Shown: one piece after another, positions 1-22,604 of the stretch
Layout: the number at the start of each line of letters is the position of its first letter
Numbering within the stretch: the first letter of the stretch is position 1
From: Acidobacteriota bacterium
GTDB taxonomy: Bacteria > Acidobacteriota > Terriglobia > UBA7540
DNA: 36,008 nucleotides
Direction of reading: 5' to 3'
Assembly (NCBI GenBank): GCA_902812365.1
Contig: CADDZC010000040.1
Location: 1 to 36,008, forward strand
Program-made: the position numbers and the translations under genes
The notes under the pieces: model-generated
The model's input: only the letters and a program-made list of their open reading frames with translations
What the model was told of the DNA's origin: nothing
Database searches by the model: none

Positions 1-172
1 GATCCGCCAGTCGCTACCAGCCGCGCACTGTTGGGAGGCATGGGCACGGGCGATCCGCCAGTCGCTACCAGCCGCGCACTGTTGGGAGGCATGGGCACGG
101 GTGATCCGCCAGTCGCTACCAGCCGCGCACTGTTGGGAGGCATGGGCACGGGCGATCCGCCAGTCGCTACCA
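1..172. repeat. 51-bp tandem repeat, about 3.4 copies
   Basis: Units begin at 1, 52, 103 and 154 (the last one partial). The unit is 51 bp, a multiple of three, so the frame is kept on both strands. Copies are identical except for one C/T difference at the last base of the second unit (position 102), which is silent in the leftward frame (TCG versus TCA). Such near-identity suggests recent expansion or ongoing homogenisation. The array continues beyond the window's left edge, so the copy number is unknown. Confidence 0.95.
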
Positions 173-416
173 CGGCTCGACGACGAATTGGGTTGACTCG
201 GCCGGCGGAAGGCGTGGACGGCGGGCTTAGTTTGGGCGCTGCGGAAACCTTCGGCGCATCGAGAGCAAAAGCGGGCAGCGGAGAACTGCCGATGGCTGTG
301 GTGTGCAAAAGCCATTGTTCAGACGCCTGATCGTGAGCGGCACACACGCGCCGCAATCCGACGCTTGCCAGTACGACCCACATGGCAAGCAACAACGGTA
401 GAAAACGCTTTGACAT
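1..416 (-). CDS. Secreted protein with 17-residue tandem repeats (partial, runs off left edge)
   Basis: An open frame starts at ATG 416-414 and is still open at base 1, so at least 138 residues are visible and the C-terminus is missing. A strong ribosome binding site, GGAGGAG, lies a few bases before the ATG and fixes the start. The N-terminus looks like a signal peptide: basic MSKR, a hydrophobic stretch FLPLLLAMWVVLASVGL, then RRVCAA with likely cleavage before HD. A Pro/Ser/Ala-rich linker follows (about residues 45-80), then near-identical 17-residue repeats with unit VATGGSPVPMPPNSARL, encoded by a 51-bp tandem repeat. I recognise no catalytic domain and do not know the function; an exported or surface protein is an inference. 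It lies downstream of, and on the same strand as, the ROK gene, 275 bp away, with its own possible promoter. Confidence 0.6.
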   Translation of the reverse strand, partial: MSKRFLPLLLAMWVVLASVGLRRVCAAHDQASEQWLLHTTAIGSSPLPAFALDAPKVSAAPKLSPPSTPSAGRVNPIRRRAVVATGGSPVPMPPNSARLVATGGSPVPMPPNSARLVATGGSPVPMPPNSARLVATGG

Positions 417-445
417 TAGACTCTCCTCCAGCGAAAGAATAGCGT

Positions 446-1859: not shown

Positions 1860-2702
1860 TCAGGCCTTGTAGGAATGTCTGGGCGGGCTCGTGGAGAGTG
1901 TCTGAGCGGCCCAAGTGCCCCACCGCCGCGTGTCTGCATATATCTCTATTGGAATCAATCGGATAACGACTTCCTTGGCGATGCTTTCCGCCACCTGAGC
2001 CGCGAGGGTCAAAATATCGTCGACGGCCTGCTCGTAGCTGGCAGCCCAAGCGTGGGTTTGGTCGCTGGCCCGGATCAACTGCGCCGTGACGCGCGCTCGT
2101 CCGCCGACGCAACGTACAGTCCCGGCAATGAGATAGCTCACGTGGAGCGCCTGGGCGATGGACTCGATCGGGGCCGCGCCGCCTTGGAATCGCAGAACGG
2201 AGTGGCGCGCCAGCACCCCTATCCGCCGCGGGTTCAGACCGCCGAGCCATGTAGTCAACTCCTCGGTGATGCTCTCCGCCAGATGTCCCTGATGTTGGCT
2301 GGGGCTGTAGTCCTCGAACGGGAGCACCGCCACAATGACTCGGTCAGATCGTAACCATCGTGGAATCAGTGAATCGCCGGTCGAGCGCTCGACCGGCGAT
2401 ACAAACCGGTATCCTCGCCGGGGCAGGGTCTCAACGAAGCGGGGGTGACGAGCGTCGTCGCCCAAGGCGTTTCGAAGCTTGCTCAGCGCCGTCTTGAGGC
2501 TGTGGTCGAAGTCTACGAATACCCCTTGCGGCCACAGTTTGGCGCGCAATTCTTCCCGCGTTACGACCTCGCCGGGCCGCTCGAGCAACAGGCCGAGAAT
2601 TTGAAACGGCTTCTCCTGCAGTTTGATTTTGCATCCGCGCCGGTGAATCTCACCGGCTCGCAAATCGACTGTAAAATCATCAAATTGAACCACTTGTGCC
2701 AT
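1860..2702 (-). CDS. Winged-helix (OmpR/PhoB type) regulator with TolB-like domain
   Basis: 280 residues. Residues 5-102 form an OmpR-type winged helix: LQEKPFQILGLLLERPGEVV, the conserved LW, then SLKTALSKLRNALGD and the wing RGYRFV. Residues 120-255 match the TolB-N/FlgO-like domain often fused to it in Acidobacteriota (AVLPFEDYSP, LAESITEELTTWL, YLIAGTVR). It is cytoplasmic with no transmembrane segment. Homologues usually continue into TPR repeats; this protein stops soon after the TolB-like domain in a tail that looks unrelated, so the C-terminal TPR part is missing. ATG 2702 is preceded by AAAGG at good spacing. Targets are unknown; the ROK gene begins 145 bp downstream on the same strand. 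Confidence 0.85.
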   Translation of the reverse strand: MAQVVQFDDFTVDLRAGEIHRRGCKIKLQEKPFQILGLLLERPGEVVTREELRAKLWPQGVFVDFDHSLKTALSKLRNALGDDARHPRFVETLPRRGYRFVSPVERSTGDSLIPRWLRSDRVIVAVLPFEDYSPSQHQGHLAESITEELTTWLGGLNPRRIGVLARHSVLRFQGGAAPIESIAQALHVSYLIAGTVRCVGGRARVTAQLIRASDQTHAWAASYEQAVDDILTLAAQVAESIAKEVVIRLIPIEIYADTRRWGTWAAQTLSTSPPRHSYKA

Positions 2703-20707: not shown

Positions 20708-20736
20708 ATTGTGTCACAAACGCGCCGGCGGGGCAA
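20708..20736 (-). promoter_or_regulatory. Promoter of the zinc-ribbon/RNase HI pair
   Basis: On the minus strand TTGCCC (20736-20731), a 17-base spacer, and CACAAT (20713-20708). Each box matches 4 of 6. The start near 20701 gives a leader of about 65 bases. Confidence 0.4.
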
Positions 20737-20790
20737 GGGCGGCGGCCCCTTTTCGGGCTGAGACCGGCCAGCCCCCGGTGGCGCCCTCGG

Positions 20791-21153
20791 TTAATCGCCG
20801 CCCCTCGCCGGGTCGCCGGCAGGCCCATCCAGGAAGCTCTCCAGGATCTCGGTCGCCTCCTGTAAATCCTCTTCGCGCACTAGCAATTGCACCACGTCGA
20901 TCCCGGGCAGCGCCTCCGCCGAAAACTCTCCCGGCAAGACACTCGGAATGCCTTCCGCTTGGAGCAGATTCTTCGCCAAGTTCGCGTCCATGTGAGCCCT
21001 CGGACCTCCGAAGGTACGAACCCGGACCAGCTTGGCGGGAACATCGGACCGTTCAGCATCGGGGGGCGGGCCGGCGCAGAGGGCCACATGGCAATCCATG
21101 CACTCGCGCGCTTCTTCAGCGTATTCCGTCCGGCATCGGGGGCAGTAGGCCAC
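20791..21153 (-). CDS. Small zinc-ribbon protein with DUF2007-like domain
   Basis: 120 residues from GTG 21153; AAGGA lies about 10 bases upstream. A GTG at 21198 would add 15 residues. The N-terminus has two CxxC pairs (YCPRCRTEY and ECMDCHVAL), a short zinc ribbon. The rest (about 45-110: LVRVRTFGGP, NLAKNLLQAEGIPSVLPGE, QLLVREEDLQEATEIL) looks like DUF2007, a small alpha/beta domain proposed to be a signal-transducing fold. No catalytic residues are known and the function is open. It lies 84 bp after the M24 peptidase gene on the same strand. Confidence 0.75.
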   Translation of the reverse strand: MAYCPRCRTEYAEEARECMDCHVALCAGPPPDAERSDVPAKLVRVRTFGGPRAHMDANLAKNLLQAEGIPSVLPGEFSAEALPGIDVVQLLVREEDLQEATEILESFLDGPAGDPARGGD

Positions 21154-21236
21154 GCTGTCGATTCCTTTTCCTTCACGCCGATAATCGCGGGACGGCACCG
21201 CCGTCCTTCATCCCCCCGGAGCCACCCAATCGCGAT

Positions 21237-22604
21237 CTACTTCTGCGACATGATTCTCTCAATTTGATCGGGATCGCGCGGCAGGCGGCGCGTCAGAATT
21301 TCATTGCCCCCTTCGGTGATGAGGATCATATCTTCGATGCGGACGCCGATCTTTTCTTCCGGAATATAAATGCCCGGCTCGACCGTGATCACCATGCCCG
21401 GCTCGAGCGGCCGATCGTAGTTCATCGGATCGTGGACGTTCAAGCCGACGGAATGGCCAATACCGTGGATGAAATAACGGCCGAGAGGCTGGCCGTGCAA
21501 GTCCTTACCGTGGCTATTGATGTAATTGTAGGCGACGCTTTGCAGGCCCTGTTGGCCGTAACGATCCACCCGTGCCCCCGGCTTTGCCGCCGCGATCACC
21601 GCGTTTTGCGCGCCCAAGACAATTTCGTAAATCTCGCGCTGGCGGGCCGTAAAGTGGCCGTCGACGGGAACGGTGCGGGTGATGTCGCTGGCATAGCCGC
21701 TGTACGAACCGGCCACGTCCATGACGACCACGTCCCCGGCCTGCATCTGCCGGTCATCGGCATCGTAGTGCAAGACGGTCGAGAAGAATCCCGAGCCGAC
21801 AATCGGCGGGTAGGACGGCCACTCGCAGCCCCGCCTCTCATATTCATACTTCATGAGCGCCGCAATCTGGTATTCCCACACTCCCGGGCGCACCGCCTTC
21901 ATGGCCGCCAGATGCGCGTCCATCGAGGCGTCGATGGCCTTGCGCATCAGGGCCAATTCTCCGGCCGATTTGACGGCGCGCATCCGGGTGAGGTAGGGGC
22001 GCACATCCTCGAATTGAGCGAGCGGCGCGAGCTTGCGGAGCCGCGCCACCTCATCTTGCTGGAAGCAATCTTCCCCGCTTTCCGGCTGCGGCGTCAGCTC
22101 GGTATAGACTTTGCGGAATTGCTTGAGGGCGGCCAGCAGCTCGCTCGGGAAAAGGGTGCTGCTTTCGACGGTCGCAAACCCGGTGCGCGCCGGAGCGTCA
22201 GGATCGTCGGGACCGATCTTGGGGCCGGTCCATTTTTCCTCTTGATAGTCTCGTGGCGGGATGAAAAGAATTTCCCTGCCGATCTCCTTGGTCTCGTCGG
22301 CGGGGCCGCGCGGCGTCTTGGGCACAATCAGCAGCATCGCGCCGGGTGAGTTCCAGCCGGTGAGATAGTAGAACTGCTCGTTTTGATGGAAGGGCGTCAC
22401 GCTCGCCGCCACGTCGTCTTCCTGGTATCCGAGCAGGGCAATCACGCCGTCGCCCGTCTGGGCCACCAGGCGCGCGCGCCGATCGTGATAGTCGGAAAGC
22501 GGTCCGCGATCCCACCCCGCGGCGGAAGCCGCCGCCAACAGGCACCAGGCCACGGCGAAGGCGGCGCGAAGCCGGAAGGCCGGCCCGCTTTTCAGCGTGA
22601 GCAT
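21237..22604 (-). CDS. Secreted M24 family metallopeptidase (Xaa-Pro aminopeptidase type)
   Basis: 455 residues from ATG 22604, with a strong GGAGGT a few bases upstream and a signal peptide right after it (MLTLKSGPAFRLRAAFAVAW, cleavage near ASAAG). The N-terminal aminopeptidase-P domain (about 40-190) precedes a pita-bread catalytic domain whose metal ligands are visible: two Asp in VMDVAGSYSGYASDITRT, His in GIGHSVGLNVHD, Glu in TVEPGIYIPEE and Glu in VRIEDMIL. It would remove N-terminal residues next to proline, dependent on Mn, in the periplasm or outside the cell. An open frame reaching 22718 adds an unlikely extension. Confidence 0.93.
   Translation of the reverse strand: MLTLKSGPAFRLRAAFAVAWCLLAAASAAGWDRGPLSDYHDRRARLVAQTGDGVIALLGYQEDDVAASVTPFHQNEQFYYLTGWNSPGAMLLIVPKTPRGPADETKEIGREILFIPPRDYQEEKWTGPKIGPDDPDAPARTGFATVESSTLFPSELLAALKQFRKVYTELTPQPESGEDCFQQDEVARLRKLAPLAQFEDVRPYLTRMRAVKSAGELALMRKAIDASMDAHLAAMKAVRPGVWEYQIAALMKYEYERRGCEWPSYPPIVGSGFFSTVLHYDADDRQMQAGDVVVMDVAGSYSGYASDITRTVPVDGHFTARQREIYEIVLGAQNAVIAAAKPGARVDRYGQQGLQSVAYNYINSHGKDLHGQPLGRYFIHGIGHSVGLNVHDPMNYDRPLEPGMVITVEPGIYIPEEKIGVRIEDMILITEGGNEILTRRLPRDPDQIERIMSQK

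Follow-up and report, generated by a model that had tools for sequence, protein, structure and literature searches.

A reading frame at the very end of a contig, built of near-identical short repeats, raises the question of what such a gene encodes in an Acidobacteriota genome and with which partner its product works. The Acidobacteriota are among the most abundant bacteria of soil and, to our knowledge, little is known of cell-to-cell signalling among them. The window, i.e. the whole stretch of DNA analysed here, is the entire contig C40, with 36,008 bases, from an assembly of 3.5 Mb, so that its base 1 is also the contig end.

A repeat-built gene is cut by the contig end

On the minus strand, a frame from the ATG at 416-414 stayed free of stops as far as base 3 of the window (138 codons) and was preceded by a GGAGGAG site at a spacing of 6 nt. 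An earlier note on this DNA had described the frame and the site. That note had also proposed a secreted, repeat-built protein, and this part of its reading held: the N-terminus of the precursor (MSKRFLPLLLAMWVVLASVGLRRVCA) has the look of a Sec signal peptide, as judged by eye, and is followed by about 55 residues, including a divergent unit, and then by VATGGSPVPMPPNSARL repeats up to the contig edge. The single array that TRF detected in the window spans 1-172 and contains 3.4 copies of a 51-bp unit (score 337, 98% matches), and a 31-base piece of this unit was present three times in the window and in none of 100 shuffles. The visible copies differ by one base (C/T), which is silent on the minus strand, again in agreement with the note. 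The features are listed in Table 1.

The 51-bp unit had a second genomic site, in matching orientation, at the right-hand end of another contig, C6 (89571-89644 of 89,644), and no matches elsewhere in the genome beyond C40:1-172 and this one. The precursor frame of C40 carries on in C6, where the minus-strand frame runs through the repeat and stops after TLWRSLELRYAGRV, 14 residues past the final residue of the repeat; no anchor domain lies between the repeats and the stop. This stop is followed by the gene of a 7TM protein, by a third gene, whose one-TM product has a helical domain, and by one that resembles purC by eye. To the other side, a Pfam scan of 10 window ORFs showed that the two closest to the array encode a ROK protein and a regulator of the winged-helix type, and two radical SAM proteins were found 12-16 kb from it. 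In the host's own locus, neither a kinase nor a G protein nor a response regulator was seen beside the peptide-7TM pair. That the neighbour is a 7TM gene and that the pair recurs across the class could not be seen in the earlier reading, which was made from the sequence only.

Contig breaks at the level of the array were also present in relatives: in G030 (C44/C127), G001 (C47/C46) and G011 (C434/C303), the leader and the 7TM gene lie at the ends of two different contigs. A contig end within 600 nt was found 5' of the 7TM gene in 15/103 loci and 3' of it in 2/103.

Table 1. Features of the precursor gene and of its neighbours in contig C6. Positions are those of the window unless a locus is given.
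Feature	Position	Strand	Remarks
Secreted tandem-peptide precursor gene, 5' part	3..416	-	138 codons visible; homologues in relatives share signal peptide type and repeat plan
Ribosome-binding site GGAGGAG	423..429	-	6 nt to ATG
Signal peptide, residues 1-26	339..416	-	probable cleavage after A26 or A27, judged by eye
Divergent single unit AIGSSPLPAF	267..296	-	ahead of array; similar divergent units in G001 and G024
Repeat unit 1, VATGGSPVPMPPNSARL	120..170	-	translation and TRF
Repeat unit 2	69..119	-	peptide identical to unit 1; translation and TRF
Repeat unit 3	18..68	-	peptide identical to unit 1; translation and TRF
Repeat unit 4, start	1..17	-	severed by contig end; more repeat sequence at C6:89571-89644
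7TM gene	L004:4716-5459	-	in C6; aligned part begins about 66 bases past precursor stop
One-TM protein gene (third gene)	L023:1014-1487	-	after 7TM gene

Selection acts on the repeated peptide

As the lone difference within the window array is silent on both strands, the coding strand was decided from the relatives. The repeat period was divisible by three in all 42 of the tandem arrays compared. Mismatches between neighbouring copies of these arrays fell at codon positions 1, 2 and 3 in 32, 16 and 276 cases, and corresponded to 268 silent and 31 amino-acid-changing codon differences, where random changes at these codons would be silent in 27.6% of cases; these copy differences were pooled and are not independent, and the frame of each array was chosen by motif. 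When read antisense, the differences became 24 silent and 275 changing, and the two shifted frames gave silent to changing numbers of 10:291 and 8:287. Therefore, the periods divisible by three and the silent excess indicate that selection acts on the peptide.

The unit consists of a near-invariant core of about 10 residues and a spacer that is free to drift. Differences in the core were 189 silent and 3 changing (788 codons), compared with 79 and 28 in the spacer (472 codons; Fisher p 8.5e-10), with core and frame motifs that were written after the peptides had been seen. The host core is ATGGSPVPMPP, and the pattern of the host family is x-G-x-x-P-x-P-x-P-P. No protease site common to the units was found between them, and the unit VATGGSPVPMPPNSARL itself has no dibasic (Kex2-type) site. 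The window repeat ORF is a real minus-strand gene, of a secreted type and built of repeats.

The 7TM gene is spread through the class and is paired with a peptide gene

A query with the leader plus repeat gave matches in 10 of 101 related genomes, the host's own counted, and a query with the 7TM protein in 49 of the 101, as a single copy in each. Exactly one 7TM match was present in 35 of the 39 genomes of the host family, the four without a match being assemblies of 75-80% completeness. The third gene follows that of the 7TM protein in 45 of the 49 genomes, including 35/35 of the host family. A scan of a genome collection with the host-family alignment returned 28 loci, all 28 from Acidobacteriota, and the named relatives are Acidobacteriota MAGs, several of them labelled gp13, subdivision 13 or Terriglobia. 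The strict 7TM profile A1 matched 14 of 396 genomes of the phylum and the broader profile A4, searched within the class, 85 of 121 (1-6 copies each); A1 alone therefore understates the spread. One 7TM query from family f10 had no matches in 72,556 plasmids.

The region upstream of the 7TM gene was inspected in a sample of 103 loci (49 from the 7TM query, 14 from A1 and 40 picked by hand among further A4 matches), from which 10 with a contig end within 330 nt were set aside. An ORF was counted when it was small, lay directly upstream, had a signal-peptide-like start and contained at least three prolines in its last 45 residues. Such ORFs were present in 74 of the 93 usable loci, compared with 6/93 on the reverse strand and 6/91 downstream as controls, and two of the 74 (G239_L113 and G086_L165) look like chance matches by eye. 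The other 19 loci comprise seven from distant phylum members, five with known causes (a contig end, an N run, an array beyond the searched stretch, genes displaced further upstream) and seven that are unexplained.

The number of units varied between species from about one to eight; some precursors hold just one unit, and the whole protein of the relatives often has fewer than 90 residues. Among the units of the relatives are MGSSPAPIPPYRHVA, GGAPVPPPRKQMVAF, NGGAPLPPSPWK, GPLPPPDDDGTFIAF and GPGPAADGFS. In family f10, the whole small peptide gene is often duplicated in place of the unit.

The tree built from 102 7TM proteins divides family f6 into two separate clades, and the f6 peptides, read by eye, are of the type NGGAPxPPxPWK in one clade and ADGxxPxPPxPW-like in the other. 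Genomes G094 and G089 each hold both kinds, so that the peptide tracks the 7TM clade even inside one genome and goes with the 7TM protein, not with the genome. Such a match between peptide and clade, read by eye, is the pattern that would be expected of a ligand-receptor pair.

Some loci had other arrangements. At L143, L144, L146, L148, L151, L154, L161 and L162 (f10 and some others), two to three head-to-tail peptide genes lie upstream of the 7TM gene. L175 (G040:C74:16840-19171) has a same-strand, head-to-tail row of three 7TM relatives, and no small secreted-peptide gene was found ahead of the one examined. In distant phylum members (L103, L104, L105, L107 and L108), the 7TM relatives carry a C-terminal tail; no small secreted-peptide gene was found upstream of them, and a glycine-rich frame is present there in two.

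The 7TM protein is predicted to have a GPCR-like arrangement of helices

The AF2 model of the 7TM protein, built with 46 sequences, showed seven long helices (pLDDT 90, pTM 0.84). The mean number of K+R was 1.6-3.0 in loops 1, 3 and 5 and the C-terminal tail, and 0.1-0.9 in the N-terminus and loops 2, 4 and 6, from which an orientation with the N-terminus outside and the C-terminus inside is predicted. Conserved polar residues were found in the outer half (R52, Y66, Y70, W71, D74, S118, E136, Q139 and N140), and R91, R104, W215 and Y217 are conserved in the inner half. None of the residues conserved in at least 70% of A1 is His or Cys, and a single glycine is the sole invariant residue in the diverse set A4; therefore, the 7TM protein has no universal catalytic motif.

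Foldseek searches with the model returned mostly GPCRs as top matches, all of them weak (best E 0.02, none below 0.001). When 1000 chains were re-aligned with VIA, all 50 listed were GPCRs, the LYCHOS GPCR domain or designed GPCR-like folds; the top match had a Z of 15.2 (rmsd 4.1, 214 aligned) and LYCHOS a Z of 14.4 (rmsd 4.8, 222 aligned), although Z values near 13-15 are common among helical bundles, as the tool itself warns. For this reason a GPCR-like arrangement is claimed and not homology and, the Foldseek matches being weak and the Z values non-specific, it is topology and context that carry the receptor reading. No sequence relative of the 7TM protein was found among PDB chains.

Neither the 7TM protein nor the third protein nor the repeats reached the cut-off of any model in Pfam, NCBIfam or PADLOC; a match of one repeat protein to PF11602 lay below the cut-off of that family. 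In a Pfam scan of 46 A1 members, no family matched more than one of them and no fused extracellular or signalling domain was recognised. The model of the third protein (pLDDT 78) was uninformative, with a best Foldseek E of 1.4.

A peptide ligand and its 7TM receptor as the proposed explanation

We propose that the ORF is the precursor of a multi-copy secreted peptide ligand and that the adjoining 7TM protein is its receptor, a reading to which we assign a probability of roughly 0.55. The precursor would be exported by Sec, and its units would be released, or displayed, beyond the inner membrane, where the core may bind a pocket that the neighbouring 7TM protein turns outwards; it is from topology and context that we infer this binding. 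The 7TM protein would then pass the signal inward, in the host family probably via the one-TM protein. With many identical copies, each translated precursor would yield more ligand, and a species-specific core would make the signal private.

More tentatively, and with slightly less than even confidence, the loci may represent an undescribed and widespread peptide communication of Acidobacteriota, in which proline-rich precursors each have their own stand-alone, GPCR-like 7TM receptor and which arose independently. With up to eight or more near-identical peptides per precursor, this class could be a bacterial equivalent, in plan, of the pheromone systems of fungi and the neuropeptide systems of animals, a suggestion that we make with the same reserve.

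The plan resembles that of the fungal tandem pheromones, such as P-factor (map2) and Mam2 of S. pombe or the alpha-factor and Ste2 of yeast, in its signal peptide (assigned here by simple criteria), its short peptide in tandem and its 7TM partner; relation is not claimed. The number of copies varies, as in map2 of S. pombe, whose precursor is reported to have 4-8 tandem copies in wild isolates and whose receptor is a GPCR (PMC6342294). Unlike the fungal systems, no sequence relation was found here and the unit has no dibasic Kex2-type spacer; moreover, the 7TM gene adjoins the peptide gene, no G protein is known and the host is a bacterium.

Autoinducing peptide systems of Gram-positive bacteria (agr, ComX/ComP type) likewise have a peptide gene beside that of a membrane protein, and species-specific peptides. 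Both traits are shared by the present loci, which differ in their Sec-type signal peptide, tandem copies and stand-alone 7TM protein; in the host's own locus, which has ROK on one side and the 7TM, one-TM and purC-like genes on the other, no histidine kinase or maturation enzyme was seen next to the pair.

With the bacterial 7TM sensors (7TMR-DISM, 7TMR-HD and LytS-type such as BtsS), the protein shares seven helices and an outside N-terminus, as predicted here, and differs from them in being a stand-alone 7TM protein to which neither a kinase nor an HD domain is fused, in having no Pfam match and in adjoining a peptide gene. BtsS, which is fused to a kinase, is reported to bind pyruvate through periplasmic-side residues of its 7TM part, and is a precedent for ligand sensing by a bacterial 7TM protein (PMC10653868).

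Alternatively, the peptide could work with the 7TM protein without diffusing, as a multivalent periplasmic subunit, regulator or substrate, the 7TM protein then being a transporter or a processing protein. Adjacency and selection fit this equally well, single-unit precursors exist and no processing site was identified; however, a core with a drifting spacer suits separable units, and the polar conservation of the 7TM protein is largely in its outer half, with no universal catalytic motif, so we consider it a serious yet unlikely alternative. Were the peptide a bacteriocin-like product exported by Sec and the 7TM protein its immunity protein, a small secreted peptide would also lie beside a membrane protein, and the peptides would diversify between species as these do. 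Nevertheless, one copy in 35/39 family genomes and presence in 85/121 class genomes speak for a core function and not for a patchy weapon, and with 0 matches in 72,556 plasmids (one f10 7TM query) and nothing convincing in PADLOC, this reading appears quite improbable.

Multi-core precursors occur among RiPPs, so that a modified natural product with several core peptides in one precursor was also considered. It merits very little credence, given the signal-peptide-like start, the constant 7TM neighbour across genomes and the nature of the nearest window ORFs (ROK and winged-helix regulator), the radical SAM proteins being 12-16 kb off. A surface protein or adhesin with a variable number of repeats is in line with the earlier note, which spoke of a surface protein, and the secreted type, the repeat-built body and the copy number that varies between species agree with it; yet the stop in C6, 14 residues after the repeats and with no anchor domain, largely refutes an anchored protein and, as the relatives often have fewer than 90 residues, this idea is scarcely credible. 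The note had also warned that the opposite strand might hide the true gene. The plus strand is indeed open at 1-330, across the array, but a gene on it is refuted by the antisense reading (24 silent to 275 changing) and by the signal peptide that relatives keep on the minus strand. A mobile intergenic repeat, which the note had named as a competing possibility, is refuted by the presence of the unit at one locus only in the genome, and the chance that either of these two accounts is right is close to nil.

A literature search over titles and the starts of abstracts, with subscription papers and preprints outside its scope, returned no account of such a system. We rate the peptide-7TM plan as categorically new for bacteria, with a ligand-receptor step that we infer. 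If the pair is a ligand and its receptor, bacteria use a plan of tandem precursor plus 7TM protein that was thought typical of eukaryotes; if the receptor step is wrong, peptide-level selection and class-wide pairing still define an undescribed conserved module outside the families of Pfam and NCBIfam.

Two further ORFs of the window are recorded here. The one at 20709-22349 (+), of 546 residues and without a Pfam match, overlaps long opposite-strand ORFs and may be no gene. The winged-helix regulator ORF at 1860-2702 (-) immediately precedes the ROK gene, which is on this strand too, and has no Pfam match outside its Trans_reg_C part.
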